Below are positions 307-7,211 of a stretch of DNA of 7,471 bases, in pieces (position 1 is the first letter of the stretch; each line of letters starts with the position of its first letter). A program made the position numbers and the translations under genes. The notes beneath the pieces are model-generated. The model searched no databases and had not been told where the DNA came from. It was given only the letters and a program-made list of their open reading frames with translations. The stretch comes from Rubrivivax sp. (GTDB taxonomy: Bacteria; Pseudomonadota; Gammaproteobacteria; Burkholderiales; Burkholderiaceae). The stretch lies in the NCBI GenBank assembly GCA_004211235.1, contig SEEY01000178.1, positions 1 through 7,471 on the forward strand, given 5' to 3'.

Positions 307-1416
307 TCATCCCGGCGCGGCCGGCTTGGTCTCGGCAGGCCGCAGGGTCTCCAGCGCCTTCATGTCGTCGGGCGTCAGCGTCGCCACGCCGGAAGCGGGG
401 GTCGCGGCTGCCGGCGTCGTCATGAGCAGCTCGGGGTGAAATTTGGCCATCTCCGCGCCGTAGAGCGGCTTGTGCGCGCCCTGGTGGCAGGTCGCGCAGT
501 TGACCTTGGCGACATCGCCGCCCGGCCCCAGCCGGTTGGCCGGGAAGGTGGTGGTGAGCGGCACCATGAACGCCAGGTTCAGCTCGCGCGCCATGCGGAT
601 GCCATGCCACGCCGTCACGCGCGCCGGGGAGCTGTTGTCCCAGGACCCGAGCGAGCGGGTGTTGTGGCACTGGGTGCAGTTCACACCCAGCGACTTGGAC
701 ATGTGCATCATGAGCCCGTAGGTCCACTCCGCCTGCTTGATGGACTGGCGGTTGCCGGCCGGCAGCGCCGCGGTTCCGGCCACGCGGATGTTTTCCGCAT
801 TGAGCAGGAAAGGCGTGAACGGGTCGTTGGGCAAGGCGGCCAGGCCGACGCTCGCGGCAGGCGCGTTCTGCCCGGCCTTGTTGCCGGCGAAGTCGTTGGC
901 GCCCTTCGGCAGCAGTGGCTGGAACCAGACTTCCTTGGGCAACGGCTCGCCGCGGTGGCAGGTGTAGCAGGTCACGACGGTCTTGCCGACGTGGCTCTGC
1001 CACTGGCTGTTGACGGTCTGCGTCATCACCAGCATGCGGCGCGCCACGATCTTGGTGTAGAGCGAGTCGTCGGCGAAGTTGGCGGCGTTGTGGCAATGCA
1101 CGCAGCCTTGCTTGGGCGCCACCCAGCTGGTCATGGCGACCATGGTGCGGTTGAACTCGCCGACGCTGAGGTTGCCCAGCACCTTGACGTTCTGGTAGAT
1201 CTGCCCGGCCTTGGGGCCGTCCGGCGACGCCGCTTCGAGCGGCGCGGGCGCCTCGTTGCTGGCGGCCTGCTCGGCGAGCGTGCGCGGGTTGTAGACCTGC
1301 TCCATGCCCGTGCCGCGATAGCCGCGCTGCACGGTCTCGATCGGCGGGCGCTCGCATCCGGCCAGCAGGCCGCACACCATCGTGAGGCCCAGGAGTGTGA
1401 CGTGGAACCTGTTCAT
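307..1416 (-). CDS. pufC: Photosynthetic reaction centre tetraheme cytochrome c subunit
   Basis: This 369-aa protein is the periplasmic cytochrome subunit that re-reduces the photo-oxidised special pair using soluble donors such as cytochrome c2 or HiPIP. It has a short hydrophobic signal peptide ending in a lipobox (L18-A19-G20-C21), so Cys21 is the likely lipid-anchored residue. Four heme c motifs are present: CVHCH at 105, CYTCH at 150, CTQCH at 247 and CATCH at 307. Their 2+2 spacing matches the family's duplicated-pair layout. Met-rich helices precede the motifs (M92/M95, M128/M131, M236-M239) and could supply axial ligands. The length is slightly above the usual 330-360 aa because of a Pro/Ala-rich tail after about residue 333. 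The ATG at 1416 overlaps the preceding ORF's stop (ATGA) and has a GGGAGAG ribosome site 5 nt upstream. It is the last puf gene seen here. Confidence 0.97.
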   Translation of the reverse strand: MNRFHVTLLGLTMVCGLLAGCERPPIETVQRGYRGTGMEQVYNPRTLAEQAASNEAPAPLEAASPDGPKAGQIYQNVKVLGNLSVGEFNRTMVAMTSWVAPKQGCVHCHNAANFADDSLYTKIVARRMLVMTQTVNSQWQSHVGKTVVTCYTCHRGEPLPKEVWFQPLLPKGANDFAGNKAGQNAPAASVGLAALPNDPFTPFLLNAENIRVAGTAALPAGNRQSIKQAEWTYGLMMHMSKSLGVNCTQCHNTRSLGSWDNSSPARVTAWHGIRMARELNLAFMVPLTTTFPANRLGPGGDVAKVNCATCHQGAHKPLYGAEMAKFHPELLMTTPAAATPASGVATLTPDDMKALETLRPAETKPAAPG

Positions 1417-1607
1417 GCATGCTCTCCCGACAAAGGCCTGGCCCGCCCGGCGAGCCCTGCGCCCGCGGCCTGCGATGCGGCCTGATGGCCCGCCACCTGC
1501 ACCGGCAGATGCGCCTGGATGGCCAGGTGCAACGCCGGCCCGCCGAGGCCCTCGCGAAGCCCGGCCGACATGGCGCTCGCCCAGCGCCTGAGCTGCTTGC
1601 GGCTCAT
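1413..1607 (-). CDS. Unrecognised 64-aa ORF between pufM and pufC
   Basis: I do not recognise this product. It starts at an ATG overlapping the pufM stop (ATGA, 1604-1607) and ends at a TGA overlapping the pufC start (ATGA, 1413-1416), filling the 187-bp gap exactly. The protein begins MSRKQLRRW, is basic at the N-terminus and Ala/Gly/His-rich after that, with no clear membrane span, signal peptide or Cys motif. A hand count gives GC of about 78%, 61% and 86% at codon positions 1, 2 and 3. That order is typical of coding DNA in GC-rich genomes, and no other gene overlaps the middle of the ORF to impose it. Against it, the ribosome site is weak, the composition is bland, and the same frame is also open as a shadow through much of pufM. 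It could instead be a structured spacer. Confidence 0.45.
1422..1428 (-). promoter_or_regulatory. pufC ribosome binding site
   Basis: GGGAGAG on the minus strand lies 5 nt before the ATG at 1416 and supports that start over the ATG at 1420, which opens a different frame without the heme motifs. It lies inside the last codons of the 64-aa ORF, so a ribosome ending there could feed pufC. Confidence 0.7.
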
Positions 1608-2584
1608 GGTTGCACCGCCGGCAGTTGCAGGGACGGGTCCAGCGCCGGCGGGAACACCGCCGGGTACGTCGGCGCCAGGCCGTGCTTGACGCCCCAGAGG
1701 TACCAGTTGTCCACGACCGTGCCGGTCAGCAGGATGCCGATGCCGCCGGTCAGTGGGCACAGCACCGCGAACCACCAGGCCCACTTGTGGATGGACTCCA
1801 TCGTCGCGTTGAAGCCCATCGTCCAGCGCCAGAACAGCGCGGCGCGCTCGCTGGCCGTGCCGCGGTCGGTGATCTGCTCGATCTCGCGCTCGCCACCGAA
1901 GCGGCTGACCGCCAGGATGGTGGCGCCGTGCATCGCGAACAGCAGCGTGCTGCCGTACAGGAAGGCGATGCTGAGCATGTGGAAGGGGTTGTAGAACAGG
2001 TTGCCGTAGCGCAGCGAGAAGGCCGCCGTCCAGTCCAGGTGCGGGAAGATGCCGAACGGCACCGCCTCGCCCCAACTGCCCATCAGCAGCGGGCGGATGA
2101 AGCCCAGCACGAGGTACAGCCAGATGGCCGCCGCGAAGGCCCAGGCCACGTGCGTGCCCATGCCAAGCTTGACGGCCCGGCGGTACATGCGCACCCACCA
2201 CAGCAGGATGGATGACGTCAGGAAGAAGCCCGCCATCAGCCACCAGCCGCCCTCGTTGAGCGGCGGCAGGTGCAGGCCATACGCCGGCGGCGGCGGCTCC
2301 AGCGCGAGCCAGAACAGCTGGCGCGCGAACTGGATCGGGTCCCAGCCGACCGAGGCCCACATGTTCAACCCGATGATCTCGATGGCGATGAAGCCGCAGA
2401 TCAGCGAGCACACGCCCAGCCAGCCCAGGTAGATGGGGCCGAGCTGCGCATCGCCGATGCGGCCGAGCAGGTGCGAGTGCAGGCCCTTGCCCTCGCGCTG
2501 GTACTCGTCGCTGCCCAGCGGCACGCCCGGATAGGACGGCGCGGTGACCTGCACGCTGGTGAAGAGGTTCTGATATTCAGCCAT
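1604..2584 (-). CDS. pufM: Photosynthetic reaction centre M subunit
   Basis: This 326-aa integral membrane protein has five transmembrane helices. With L it binds the bacteriochlorophyll special pair, the accessory pigments, the quinones and the non-heme iron. His202 is the special-pair ligand (FYNPFHM). His219 (AMHG), Glu234 (GGEREIEQ) and His266 (ESIHKW) are the iron ligands, and Tyr210 sits in AFLYG. The numbering coincides with the Rhodobacter M numbering in this region. The C-terminus runs about 20 residues beyond the Rhodobacter end, as in species whose reaction centre carries a bound tetraheme cytochrome, which fits the downstream pufC. Asp45 replaces the Asn found at M44 in Rhodobacter sphaeroides and pairs with an Asn in PufL. 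The start lies 12 nt after the pufL stop, with GAGGAG 8 nt upstream. Confidence 0.98.
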
Positions 2585-2592
2585 GGTGGGTT

Positions 2593-2598
2593 CTCCTC
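2593..2598 (-). promoter_or_regulatory. pufM ribosome binding site overlapping the pufL stop
   Basis: GAGGAG begins on the second base of the pufL TGA (TGAGGAG) and stands 8 nt before the pufM ATG. This arrangement couples M translation to completion of L, consistent with their 1:1 stoichiometry. Confidence 0.75.
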
Positions 2599-3421
2599 AT
2601 TTCCAGACCGGCAGGTTGAGCCACCAGCTCCACCACTCGGGCCAGCCGCGCGTCCAGAACGGCCCGCTGATGACGATGCAGACGGCGCTCCAGAAACCGG
2701 CCGACAGGGCCAGGAAGAGCCCCAGGCGGTGGATGCCCAGCGTGCCGATCGAATAGCCGATGGCATCGCGGAAGAAGGTGTTCTCGTGCTCGGCCGTCTT
2801 CACCACCTGGCCCTTGCCGGGGTTGGTCGCCGACAGGATCAGCGCGCCGTGCAGGCTCAGCGCGAAGGTGGTGGCGAAGAAGAAGCTCACCGCCAGCATG
2901 TGCGCCGGGTTGTAGTGGAAGTGCAGGTACTGGTAGCCCGTGTTGGACACCCAGTCGAGGTGACTCATGATTCCGTACGGGAAGCCGTGGCCCCAGGCGC
3001 CCATCAGCAGCGGCCGGATGATGACCAGCGTGACGTAGGCCAGGATGGCGACCGCGAAGGCGAACGGCACGTGATAGCCGATGCCGAGCTTGCGGCAGAT
3101 CTCCACCTCGCGCAGCGCCCAGGAGATGAAGGAGCCGGTGGCGCAGACGGTGACGAGCTGCCACAGCCCGCCCTCCATCAGCGGCGCCATGCCGAGGCCG
3201 TATTTCAGGTCGGGCGGCGCGATGCTGATCTGCCAGAGGTTCCAGGTGCCGCCCTGCGAGGCGCCCCAGACGATCAGCAGGATGCCGACCAGCGAGAAGA
3301 ACGCCGTCGTCAGGCCGAAGAAGCCCACGTAGAAGGGTCCGACCCAGAAGTCGAGCAAGTCGCCTCCCAACAGGGTCCCGCCGCGGACGCGGTACTTTCT
3401 TTCGAAGTTCAGCATGGCCAT
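2597..3421 (-). CDS. pufL: Photosynthetic reaction centre L subunit
   Basis: This 274-aa protein is the five-helix partner of M in the reaction centre core. It carries the active electron-transfer branch cofactors and the QB pocket. His154 and His174 (FHYNPAHM) match the accessory and special-pair bacteriochlorophyll ligands. His191 (LHGA) and His231 (GIHRLG) match the iron ligands, and Glu213 (HENTFF) matches the QB proton-path L-Glu212. The next residue is Asn214 rather than the Asp213 of Rhodobacter sphaeroides. I chose the ATG at 3421 ([15 protein letters not shown]), which reproduces the family N-terminus, over an in-frame GTG three codons upstream. A GAGGTGG ribosome site lies just before it, inside a small hairpin. 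It is separated from pufA by a hairpin-rich spacer and followed 12 nt later by pufM. Confidence 0.98.
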
Positions 3422-3426
3422 GCTTG

Positions 3427-3439
3427 CCACCTCAGGTGG
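3427..3439 (-). promoter_or_regulatory. pufL ribosome binding site within a hairpin
   Basis: On the transcript strand CCACC-TGA-GGTGG can form a 5-bp stem with a 3-nt loop. Its right side contains the Shine-Dalgarno sequence GAGGTGG, 5 nt before the pufL ATG. Pairing would partly hide the ribosome site and could lower L translation relative to the antenna genes. The stem is short, so the effect is uncertain. Confidence 0.5.
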
Positions 3440-3527: not shown

Positions 3528-3713
3528 CTACTTCGGCGCCGGCGCAGGCATCGATGAGTTCTGGCTCACCGCCTGCGTCCGGGGCCCGTCGAGCCAGTTG
3601 AACTTGTTGGTACTCAGCAGCACGAAGTGAATCACCAGTGCCAGTACGAACAGGAACGCAAACAACGCGACCAGCGCTCGGCGCGGGTCGAACAGCAACC
3701 AAATCTTCCACAT
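3528..3713 (-). CDS. pufA: LH1 core antenna alpha subunit
   Basis: This 61-aa single-span antenna peptide forms the inner ring of LH1 and binds bacteriochlorophyll a and carotenoid. It opens with [15 protein letters not shown], the hallmark alpha N-terminus. A hydrophobic helix from about residue 13 to 35 includes His29 ([10 protein letters not shown]), the bacteriochlorophyll Mg ligand. NKFNWLDGP follows at the periplasmic face, then a polar Pro/Ala tail that is commonly trimmed in the mature peptide. It starts 11 nt after the PufB-like gene's stop. The ribosome site AGGAGAG overlaps that stop codon, so PufA translation is probably coupled to the PufB-like gene rather than directly to pufB. 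Confidence 0.97.
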
Positions 3714-3719
3714 GCTTTT

Positions 3720-3726
3720 CTCTCCT
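3720..3726 (-). promoter_or_regulatory. pufA ribosome binding site overlapping the upstream stop
   Basis: AGGAGAG stands 6 nt before the pufA ATG. Its first two bases are the last two of the TAG that ends the PufB-like gene (TAGGAGAG). This makes terminating ribosomes well placed to restart on pufA and argues that the upstream ORF is translated. Confidence 0.75.
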
Positions 3727-3949
3727 AGTTCAGGTGGGACAGGAAGGTGTAGACACCCGACCGCACACCCTTGATCAGTGATTTCTCACCCTCTGCGCCA
3801 GGCAACCACGTGCGCCACTTCAGGAACAGCACCTGGGCGGCGAGCGCGATCAGGAACACGAATACAAAGCTCATGAAGAACAGCGCTTCAAAAGCCTTGG
3901 AGTCCTGCAACGCAGGGTTGCTCACAGGAACGGTCGTGATCTCAGCCAT
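3725..3949 (-). CDS. PufB-like membrane protein lacking the BChl-ligand His
   Basis: This 74-aa single-span protein sits between pufB and pufA, where no gene is expected. Its first 49 residues align without gaps to the adjacent PufB, with 18 identities: MAE at the start, F20, F24, S27-F28, I34-A35, A38, V40-L41, W45-R46 and W48-L49. The two conserved beta-chain histidines are replaced: His21 by Glu and the bacteriochlorophyll-ligating His39 by Gln. The likely membrane span is about 22-43. After WL it carries a 25-residue extension absent from PufB, with Lys, Arg and Tyr and ending YTFLSHLN. By analogy with LH1 beta this would face the periplasm. It has a ribosome site (GAAAGG) and its stop overlaps the pufA ribosome site. 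It looks like a diverged beta paralogue, perhaps a structural or ring-gap component of RC-LH1. The function is inferred and I know of no established name. Confidence 0.88.
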
Positions 3950-3972
3950 GGCGACAACCTTTCAAACGGGTT

Positions 3973-4122
3973 TCAGAGCCAGGGACGCCACATCCACACC
4001 AGCACATGGGCCACCGCGGCAATCGCCGTGAAGCCGATGAAGCTGGTCATGAAGATGCCGTGGAATTCCCGGGCTTCGTTTTCAGTCAGCCCGGACAACG
4101 AGCCTGTTCTGCTTTCAGCCAT
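3973..4122 (-). CDS. pufB: LH1 core antenna beta subunit
   Basis: This 49-aa peptide forms the outer ring of LH1 and pairs with PufA to bind bacteriochlorophyll a. It begins [17 protein letters not shown], the typical beta N-terminus. His21 (EFHGIF) and His39 (AVAHVLVW) are the two conserved histidines, His39 being the Mg ligand. It ends WMWRPWL, the aromatic periplasmic cap of beta chains. The length is normal for the family. The ATG follows GAGGAG by 8 nt. It is the first puf gene after bchZ, 117 bp downstream of it, with no pufQ between. A 23-nt gap with a GAAAGG ribosome site separates it from the PufB-like gene. Confidence 0.96.
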
Positions 4123-4239: not shown

Positions 4240-5724
4240 TCAAGCCAGCGCCCCGATGGCCGCCGCGGCCAGCTTCCGCGTATGACCTTCAATGTCTTCA
4301 ACCGCCACGGCGGCAGCGCCACGCGCACGCGCCGCAGCCTCCGCCCGGTCCCGCAGCCGCTTGGCGGCCGAGATGCGCACCAGCACCGGCTGCGCCTCCA
4401 GCAATTCGTCCAGCAGTTCCTTGGCGTCGTCGCTCCAGTCCATCTCCGGCAGGGCGCGCGCCGGCGTGGGCGGAGCGCGGTCGAGGTCGGTGGCCAGCGG
4501 CAGGATGTGGAAGAGCGCGTCGAACAGCGCGTTGCAGAACTCCTGCACGAGATAGGTCGCGCCGGCATAGCCCATGAAGGGCGTGCCGGTAGCCCGGCGG
4601 ATCAGCGCACCGGGGAAGGAGGCGGGAATGAAGGCCGGCTTCATCGGCCCCGTGCTGGCCGCCTCGGCCAGATACATGCGCTCGTTGAAGCTGCCGTACA
4701 TCACCAGCGGCGGCTTCTCATGCACCAGCGCGCGGATGGCGGCGTTGTCGGTCTTCTCGCCGGGCTTGCGGGCCACCGCGAAGTTGCAGGGCAGGCCGAG
4801 TTCGTCTTCGAAGAAATGACGCAGGCCGCGCGAATAGGTTTCGCTGGCCACGACGGCGAAGCTGGCCGTGCCGAAGAAGTCCTGCGTGACCGAACGCCAC
4901 AGGTCCCAGATCGGCTTGATGGTGGTGTGCTTCTCGCGCTCGATGAAGGGCTCGGGATCGAGGTGCAGCAGTTCGCCCAGCTGGCGCAGGAAGGCGGTGG
5001 TGCTGTGCAGGCCGATGGGCGCCTGCAGATAGGGCCGGTCCAGCGCCTCGCAGAGCAGGCGGCCGAACTCGCGGTACATGCAGACATTGGCGTCCGCGTC
5101 GGCCAGCTTCGCGACGTCGGCCACATGGCTGCCCAGCGGGAAGGCCATGTTGACCTCGGCGCCGATGCCTTCGATGAGGCGGCGGATCTCGTGCAGATCG
5201 CTGGCGCTGTTGAACTGGCCGTAGCAGGGGCCGATGATGTTGACGCGCGGCTTCTCGCCGGCGGGCCGCTCGGCAAAGGGCTTGCGCGCCGGCACCTTCT
5301 TGACGCCGTATTCCGTCCACAGCCAGAACATCGCGCGGTTGGCGCATTGCCACTGGTCTTCGTCGATGGTGCGCGGCAGGAAGCGGGCGATGTTGGTGCC
5401 CTCGGGCGTCACGCCGCCGCCGATCATCTCGGCGATGGAGCCGGTGACGACGACGCTGGGCAGATCGGGGTCGAGCGCCGCATGGGCGCGCTTCATGGCG
5501 CCCTCGGTGCCCTCGCGGCCCAACTGCTCCTCGGCCAGGCCGGTCACGACGATGGGCAGCTCATGCGGCGGCAGCGCGTCGGTGTAGTGCAGCACCGAGG
5601 TCACCGGCAGGTTCTCGCAGCCCACGGGGCCGTCGATGACGACCTGCAGGCCCTTGATGGCGGTGAACACGTAGACGGCGCCCCAGTAGCCGCCGGCCCG
5701 GTCGTGGTCGAGGACTAGGCTCAT
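4240..5724 (-). CDS. bchZ: Chlorophyllide a reductase subunit BchZ
   Basis: This 494-aa protein is the NifK/BchB-like subunit of the nitrogenase-type chlorophyllide a oxidoreductase, which reduces the C7=C8 bond of chlorophyllide a on the way to bacteriochlorophyll a. With BchY it forms the catalytic heterotetramer. Cys36 ([10 protein letters not shown]) is positioned to give the fourth ligand of the interface [4Fe-4S] cluster. Family signatures follow: [30 protein letters not shown] and the Trp-rich region near [10 protein letters not shown]-terminal segment from about residue 428 ([11 protein letters not shown]) resembles the small helical domain shared with protochlorophyllide reductase B. 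The start ATG overlaps the bchY TGA (ATGA) and a GGAG ribosome site lies 8 nt upstream. An upstream extension in this frame to 6120 is only a shadow inside bchY. Confidence 0.97.
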
Positions 5725-7211
5725 ACCATCTGCTCCGCTTGCCGGCGCTTCTGGATCTTGATGACCTGCCGCCGCGTGTCGGCGCGGAACTCGGGGTGCA
5801 GCACGGGCGTCTCGGTCCAGACGCCGGCGCGGTCGCCCTGCCCCGTCTCGCCGAAGAACTCGCGCATCTGGTCGAAGCGGTGCTTGTTGGCCATGGCCGC
5901 GTTGACGACCGTGGCCAGCGAGCCGGCACCGGCCGGGCCCATCAGCGGGCGCGCCGAGATGAGGTTGGTGAAGTAGAGCGACGGCAACGCCATCTGCTTG
6001 GCCTTCTGCACGACGGGCGTGGTGCCGATGGCCAGGTCCGGCTTGAACTCGGCCACGGCCGCCAGGTCCTGCTCGAGCGAGGCGCGGTACTGCACGTGCA
6101 CGCCACGGGCCTGCAGCCATTCGCGGTCGGGGTCGCTCCAGCGGGTGCGCGGGCAGGCGGTGCCGACGTAGGGCACCTCGGCGCCGCTCTCGATCAACAG
6201 GCGCGCCACCAGCAGCTCCGACCCCTCGTAGCCGCTGACCGTCACGCGACCCTTGATCGGCGCGCGAGCCAACGCTGCCTTGATCGCCGGGAGGAAGCGC
6301 TGCTTGGCTGCATCGATGTTCGCCTGCGGCACATTGGCCGCCATGCCGATGGCCTGCAGCCAGGCCTCGGTGCCGTCATGCCCCACCGGCGCGGAGCCGA
6401 TGACCGGCCGGCCTGCCGCCTCGAACTCGCGCACGCAGGCCGTGTAGAAGGGGTGGATGGCCGCGACGACCGAGCAGTCCAGCGCGGCGTAGAGCTCGCG
6501 CCATTCGCGCGTCGGCACCACCGGGCCGGCGGCCAGGCCCATGGGCTCCAGCAGCATGCCCAGCACGACCGGGTCCGCCGGGAACATCTCGCCGAGCAGG
6601 CTCACGGTCGGGCGGCCAGCCTGGCGCTTCTCCTGCCAGCCGGTGGGCGCGCTGACCGGGCCGCTCTCGGCCTCGCCGCGGGCGTACTTCAGCATCGCGC
6701 CCGCCAGCACATCCTTGGCCTCGGCATGCGTGGGCACGCCGAAGCCGGGCACGTCGATGCCGATGATGCGCACGCCGTTGATCTGCTTGGGCAGCAGTTG
6801 CAGCGGCACGCCGCTGGCGGTGGGCACGCACAGGTTGATGACGACCAGCGCATCGAGCTTGGCCGGATCGGCCTGGGCATGCACGGCCTCGCGGATGTCC
6901 TCGAACAGCTTGCCCGTCACGAGGCTCTCGCTGTTGAAGGGCACGTAGCCGACGCTGCGCTTGGCGCCGTAGAAGTGCGACGTGAAGGTCAGCCCGTAGA
7001 CACAGCAGGCCGAGCCGCTGAGGATGGTGGCCGTGCGCCGCATGCGCAGGCCGACGCGCAGTGCGCCGAAGGCCGGGCACATGCTCTGCGGCTGGTCATG
7101 CGGGCCCTTGGGGTAGTCGGCGGCGTAGCGCTCCAGCGTGACGCGCGTCGCTTCGCTCTGGGTCTGGCTTTGCGCCAGGGCCATCTCCGGAGTTGCGTGG
7201 CAGTTCGACAT
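5721..7211 (-). CDS. bchY: Chlorophyllide a reductase subunit BchY
   Basis: This 496-aa protein is the NifD/BchN-like subunit of chlorophyllide a oxidoreductase. Cys45 (SMCPAFGA), Cys70 (GSACCVYGL) and Cys128 (NLCVP) have the 25- and 58-residue spacing of the three BchY cysteines known to ligate the interface iron-sulfur cluster. The start [10 protein letters not shown] at 7211 lies two bases after the bchX stop. The frame is open further upstream to 7424, but that part lies in bchX and does not resemble BchY. No strong ribosome site is visible, so translation is probably coupled to bchX. The end overlaps the bchZ start by four bases. The length and composition are normal for the family. Confidence 0.97.

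Follow-up and report, generated by a model that had tools for sequence, protein, structure and literature searches.

The gene that lies between pufB and pufA in a photosynthesis gene cluster of Rubrivivax sp. encodes a 74-residue protein, referred to here as X, which by profile comparison is a paralogue of the beta chains of light-harvesting complex 1 (LH1). X has lost the histidine that ligates bacteriochlorophyll in beta chains, and it carries a C-terminal tail that is missing from the neighboring PufB; among relatives, a PufB with such a tail and X exclude one another. Because the gene is conserved, its histidine is lost, and its tail is absent from the working beta chain, we think it probable that X is an overlooked structural subunit of the core: judged from sequence comparisons, it would be an ancient paralogue of a long-tailed beta chain that now serves as a pigment-free component of the LH1–reaction-center complex. 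The features of the analyzed stretch (the window, 7,471 nucleotides of contig SEEY01000178.1) on which the argument draws are as follows:

307..1416, minus strand: pufC, the reaction-center tetraheme cytochrome (profile match)
1604..2584, minus strand: pufM (profile match)
2597..3430, minus strand: pufL (profile match)
3528..3713, minus strand: pufA, LH1 alpha chain
3720..3726, minus strand: Shine-Dalgarno sequence AGGAGAG of pufA, overlapping the TAG stop of X (3725-3727)
3725..3949, minus strand: X, 74-residue His-less beta paralogue of the ORF74/ORF2 type (ORF, neighbors, homologues, and profile comparison)
3728..3817, minus strand: conserved cap and tail of X, residues 45-74, under the strongest purifying selection (codon comparison)
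3833..3835, minus strand: Gln39 codon of X, at the column of the beta bacteriochlorophyll-ligand His (alignment)
3958..3962, minus strand: Shine-Dalgarno-like AAAGG of X
3973..4122, minus strand: pufB, a short LH1 beta chain of 49 residues with both histidines and without a tail
4240..5727, minus strand: bchZ (start set from a profile match; the listed ORF extends further upstream)

The genes follow one another in the order bchY-bchZ-pufB-X-pufA-pufL-pufM-pufC, and the window PufL is 99% identical to PufL of Pelomonas sp. Root405. A sequence-only reading of this DNA had described X as a His-less PufB paralogue standing between pufB and pufA, and we could confirm the gene, its likeness to beta chains, and the absence of both histidines, His39 of PufB being replaced by Gln39 and His21 by Glu21. 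Separately from X, a 64-residue ORF at 1413-1607 (minus strand) fills the gap between pufM and pufC with ATGA-type overlaps at both ends. DNA matching it (E <1e-5) occupies the corresponding gap in at least 8 Roseateles-like loci, its position resembles that of ORF77 of R. depolymerans (PMC10037100), and it is a second small puf-operon gene of unknown function.

X itself is already in print. By position and size, on which the identification rests, it is the same gene as ORF74 of Roseateles depolymerans (RD2015_RS05155) and ORF2 of Rubrivivax gelatinosus, and we find X between pufB and pufA in both species (L009 for R. depolymerans; L049/L051 for Rvi. gelatinosus). In the portions of the two sources that are accessible, ORF74 (PMC10037100) and ORF2 (PMC12817894, from Nagashima 1994) are listed with function unknown; the latter source aligned ORF2 with alpha chains only (PufA2, 10-14.5%) and judged it not to be their source. 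A search of open-licence PMC text turned up no account of beta kinship, ligand loss, or a tail rule for either ORF. The sequence-only reading had allowed for an earlier description; there is one, under two names, and in the accessible texts it goes no further than an ORF of unknown function. New here are the identification of X as a beta paralogue and the either-or relation described below, whereas the gene was known already, and the automatic name that JGI gives to many X proteins, 'light-harvesting complex 1 beta chain', says beta.

The kinship of X to LH1 beta chains is supported at several levels. An ungapped alignment of X with the neighboring PufB over residues 1–49 yields exactly the 18 identities that had been counted by hand, including the initial MAE and the W-R-x-W-L cap, and since none of 20,000 block-wise shuffles reached that number (mean 6.0, maximum 15), chance is excluded as the source of the likeness. 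As a single sequence, X falls below the cut-offs of both the Pfam LHC family (PF00556; 12.4 versus 23 bits) and the NCBIfam pufB family (NF040862; 13 versus 61 bits). The X profile matches that of short PufB at 97.4% probability (E 1.5e-11, 45 columns) and that of long-tailed PufB at 99.6% (E 2.4e-24), without gaps over 71 of 74 columns, which is the best of the comparisons with PufB and PufA (two rows were removed from the PufB profile). Origin from an alpha chain is ruled out, the profile match to PufA reaching 1.6% (E 0.032). By profile comparison, X is thus homologous to LH1 beta across the helix and the W-R-x-W cap.

The nearest relatives of X in the PDB are solved beta chains with tails (8z81_B, E 2.9e-17; 9m8m_B; 7xxf_B), and searches of the PDB at E up to 10 returned no solved structure containing a member of the X family. 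Nor did X prove to be a known accessory subunit under another name, as no PufX, protein-U, protein-W, or gamma chain was among the PDB matches, in a search that short gamma chains could escape. Another entry, 8k5o, holds 16 copies of an 86-residue beta chain and beside them chain 4, a single-copy 105-residue LHC-domain chain that matches the X profile at E 1.8e-4 and is a possible precedent for an odd beta chain in a ring. The predicted model of X (mean pLDDT 68.8) has a long helix at residues 12–48 and a short helix, of low confidence, at 57–71; the latter has a mildly amphipathic character, with a moment of 0.48 that 2.8% of shuffles attain (the median across the family is 6%, n = 126). A fold search with this model, run to E 10, was without a match, which is usual for a single helix.

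Homologues of X are widespread among relatives. A single-sequence search of a large protein set returned 50 proteins, all at least 53% identical, with Roseateles and Pelomonas as the nearest named relatives; a search with the X profile (E up to 1e-3) retrieved 1530 proteins; the best 120 were inspected, and the remainder may include ordinary beta chains. A pattern scan of named genomes with strict motifs gave 80 listed loci out of 88 confirmed. X stands directly before pufA in all 80, and pufB directly before X in 79, the exception (L073) being a contig that starts at X. The titles of X-bearing records span Roseateles, Pelomonas, Paucibacter, Sphaerotilus, Leptothrix, Pseudacidovorax, Pseudorhodoferax, Ideonella, Aquincola, Piscinibacter, Rubrivivax gelatinosus, R. 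benzoatilyticus, and many other Burkholderiales, together with one metagenome bin labelled Methylotenera. In two metagenome proteins of 131–132 residues (P0051 and P0052), PufB runs straight into X; such a fusion would give X the wrong topology, and a frameshift or sequencing error is therefore likely. The codon set was drawn from 185 sequences, of which 26 lack a pufB-X-pufA triple (genomes with a long PufB, genomes with an ORF upstream of pufB, partial contigs, and L014, L044, L062, and L073, where X is present but the pattern failed or pufB is absent); the remaining 159 became 130 distinct loci after removal of identical ones.

So as not to look only where X occurs, we also sampled genomes by pufL. 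The cut-off was passed by 63 of 399 genomes of the Rvi. gelatinosus family and 42 of 349 of its order, with 4 in common; one partial pufL brought the sample to 102 genomes, some of them the same assemblies as the named loci, and removal of three that were unreadable around pufBA (G378, G453, and G695) left 99. In 83 of these, a short PufB, ending 1–3 residues past the W-R/K-x-W motif, is followed by X, which is found at the same operon position here as in the 80 listed loci. In 12 others, PufB is long, with 27–28 further residues past that motif, and X is absent. In the last 4 (G120, G587, G470, and G617), PufB is short, pufA is not preceded by X, and an ORF of 75–90 residues lies just upstream of pufB. 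Long PufB and X occur together in none of the 99 readable genomes (Fisher p 2e-12, a value uncorrected for the kinship of these related genomes). A tailless beta chain without any X is usual outside this order, as in Thermochromatium and Rhodobacter; the tail is therefore not universally needed, which counts against the structural reading proposed below.

Each of the four upstream ORFs also encodes a beta-like protein without the His, with profile matches of 95.8% to X, 94.5% to long PufB, and 23% to short PufB; they are perhaps an X that has moved, or else a second, independent loss of the ligand. The loci concerned are L153, L154, L158, and L089/L144, and a reading of these ORFs as PufQ found no support in Pfam or NCBIfam. 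We note also that in genome G378 (locus L198) the pufL match starts only at residue 50 and no pufB or pufA lies upstream, in a sequence without N; its puf operon is possibly rearranged or broken.

The long-tailed LH1 beta chain, as found in the 12 genomes and in 8z81_B, 9m8m_B, and 7xxf_B, shares with X the helix, the W-R-x-W cap, a PGxxG...S...V tail, and the spacing to pufA; unlike X, it has the ligand His and is the main beta chain of the ring, whereas X is paired with a tailless PufB. X lies 10–12 nt before pufA in 98 of the 130 distinct loci (range 10–22) and long PufB 11–12 nt before it in 12 of 12, while the short PufB of the four upstream-ORF genomes is 47–73 nt away; wherever the setting was read, long PufB sits in the same bchYZ-puf context as X. 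Because the spacing matches and the tail is homologous, X probably occupies the slot of an ancestral long-tailed pufB, the short pufB being an added or reduced copy. The earlier description of X as inserted between pufB and pufA is accordingly right as to position, and the direction of the change was probably the reverse.

On gene trees the two arrangements interleave. The main tree, built from BchY, BchZ, PufL, and PufM (77 of 94 with all four genes; 50 rows after thinning at 93% identity; L189 excluded, as its bchYZ is not beside its puf genes), rejects a single clade of long-PufB rows (p-AU 4e-7) and calls for at least 4 changes between arrangements, 3 of them forced by well-supported branches. 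A PufL-only tree needs 7 changes for the long-PufB rows, of which well-supported (starred) branches force only 1, and another tree, with only 2 long-PufB rows, groups both together. A further tree also rejects one clade (p-AU 3e-14), but in it missing data pulls short loci together; all of these are quick trees with SH-aLRT support only. As the long-PufB rows do not form one clade, there was more than one swap between the states or more than one exchange of pufBA segments. Against a structural reading, segment exchange could itself spread the either-or rule between genomes.

From these patterns we infer membership of X in the complex, its topology, and its structural role as follows. A long-tailed beta chain would have been duplicated and, in the majority of the phototrophic Burkholderiales sampled, its roles divided between two neighboring genes, PufB keeping the bacteriochlorophyll-binding helix without the C-terminal tail and X keeping the tail without the ligand. 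Translated from the pufBA message, X would insert as a single membrane helix with its beta-type W-R-x-W cap at the periplasmic face, would bind no bacteriochlorophyll through the usual site, and would pack into or against the LH1 ring; there, its periplasmic tail may act in trans as the tail of long PufB does in cis, perhaps holding LH1 to its neighbors, the reaction center, or PufC. A more specific version, which we hold tentatively, makes X a third, pigment-free, beta-derived LH1 subunit that takes up several or all positions and supplies the periplasmic tail in most phototrophic Burkholderiales, the split and the fused state having repeatedly replaced one another at one position of the operon. 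The LH1 gamma chains of Blastochloris (16 copies) and the gamma-like peptide of Rhodopila globiformis (11 copies), as given in the accessible text of PMC9788563 and PMC9640540, resemble the proposed X in being pigment-free small membrane helices that pack against beta chains. They show no sequence match to X in the PDB searches, and the Rpi. globiformis peptide has 22 residues and the opposite orientation.

How many copies of X a core might hold bears on a second, narrower form of the structural-subunit explanation, in which one or a few X per core replace a beta chain and block ring closure or mark a quinone channel, as PufX or protein-W do; this is the idea put forward in the sequence-only reading. 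The ribosome site that X had been said to possess, and the overlap of its stop with the ribosome site of pufA, are both there, although the X site is weak in the window (-4.3 kcal/mol, versus -8.5 for pufB and -7.3 for pufA), which would suit such a role and counts against the broader structural reading. Across 159 loci, duplicates included, the median energies are -8.4 for pufB, -7.8 for X, and -7.3 kcal/mol for pufA, and the X site is weaker than that of pufB in 89 and than that of pufA in 61, in a comparison that favors X by choosing its start from the best ribosome site. With energies this similar across loci, the idea that X is heavily under-translated, and hence present in few copies, finds no support. 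The X of R. depolymerans shares 72% identity with that of the window; there, according to PMC10037100, the major puf transcript, of 1 kb, carries ORF74, pufA, and pufB together, and no transcripts are more reduced in a sigma-factor mutant than these three, with 2.34% of ORF74 left.

Some observations favor a gap-forming X: a beta-shaped helix without a ligand is what the end of a ring would hold, other species have gaps at the equivalent ring positions that are made by unrelated proteins (PMC7806223), and the single-copy chain of 8k5o matches the X profile. The similar site energies and the place of X within an abundant pufBA transcript tell against it, as does its exchange with a tail present on every long PufB, which suggests a role at many ring positions, and we regard a ring breaker as a rather doubtful candidate. 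In accessible descriptions, PufX, protein-U, and protein-W are accessory subunits that shape the ring; they show no sequence match to X in the PDB searches, protein-W has three helices and protein-U two against the one predicted for X, and X is not beside pufM in the loci read. Several copies of X are favored by the either-or rule and by the ribosome sites, a single one by the analogy with PufX and protein-W and by the 8k5o chain; full-strength sites in most relatives and an abundant transcript in Roseateles are no less compatible with a subunit present many times than with one that forms a gap as a single copy.

Selection acts unevenly along X. Omega over 27 independent close pairs comes to 0.08 for PufB, 0.14 for PufA, and 0.20 for X, within which the tail stands at 0.11 and the N-terminal and helix half at 0.26; with 36 pairs the values are 0.12, 0.16, and 0.24 (tail 0.11, helix half 0.33), respectively. 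The nearly invariant residues of cap and tail are W45, R46, W48, P50, G51, A52, E53, V62, V66, Y67, and S71. The loose constraint on the helix half (omega 0.26–0.33) counts against the structural reading, and its combination with a tight tail is what a protein that binds a partner by the tail alone would show. X might accordingly aid LH1 insertion or closure and be absent from the finished core; a purely assembly-time role would predict the identical pattern, and the literature searched mentions no further small LH1 polypeptide, beyond two, in these species, which is weak evidence in the same direction. A factor needed only in catalytic amounts would, however, be expensive to make from the pufB-pufA slot with full-strength ribosome sites in most relatives, and the mutual exclusion of X and the PufB tail points to structural exchange, leaving an assembly factor unlikely.

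The ligand column of X holds Gln in 104 of the 130 distinct loci, Thr in 8, Lys in 5, Ala in 4, Leu in 3, Ser in 2, and Glu, Gly, Cys, and His in a single locus apiece, whereas PufB has the ligand His in 130 of 130. At the second beta His column, 18 residues upstream, X has His in 3 of 130 and PufB in all 130. The named loci outside this set (L014, L044, L062, and L073) likewise lack the ligand His, and the ligand column of L106 is Gln. The sole His (VGHLL) belongs to L142/L199 (genome G097) and is either a reversion or a primitive state. The 26 loci without the usual Gln, this member among them, count against the structural reading.

Gln is able to ligate chlorophylls in other proteins, and X could be another beta chain with a pigment of its own, its Gln39 ligating bacteriochlorophyll so as to tune the spectrum. 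The sequence-only reading had kept this option in view; Gln is indeed the commonest residue, and one member has His, but Gln is not conserved. Ala, Leu, or Gly, whose side chains are unable to ligate, occupy the column in 8 loci, Thr, Lys, Ser, Glu, or Cys in 17 more, and the second His is almost always gone. Ligation by Gln as a conserved function of X finds no support in these loci, and we consider a pigment-binding X very improbable. Lastly, a decaying duplicate or mechanical ORF without function, as the scores of X alone below the Pfam and NCBIfam cut-offs and the two apparent PufB-X fusions might suggest, is refuted by dN/dS and distribution: the omega of X is far from the value of 1 that had been named beforehand as a mark of decay and indicates purifying selection, above all on the tail; X is kept in 83 of 99 readable genomes, where a lack of homologues in relatives had been the other mark named, and is strongly transcribed in R. 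depolymerans (PMC10037100, accessible text); and both fusions are single sequences, with the wrong topology for X, that look like frameshifts.

Rubrivivax gelatinosus is a laboratory phototroph of long standing, and even so one gene of its puf operon has had no known function; the comparison identifies it as a ligand-less beta chain. If X is in the core, a widespread group of bacteria from fresh water and soil has an LH1 that is more than a plain alpha-beta ring, and the core models published for them are short of one subunit. If X indeed supplies a detached tail around the ring, LH1 in these organisms would be a three-chain ring in which one beta gene has been split into a pigment-holding half and a tail-holding copy. 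The either-or rule gives a handle on the function of the beta tail, and on how pigment-free members may set ring closure and quinone traffic.
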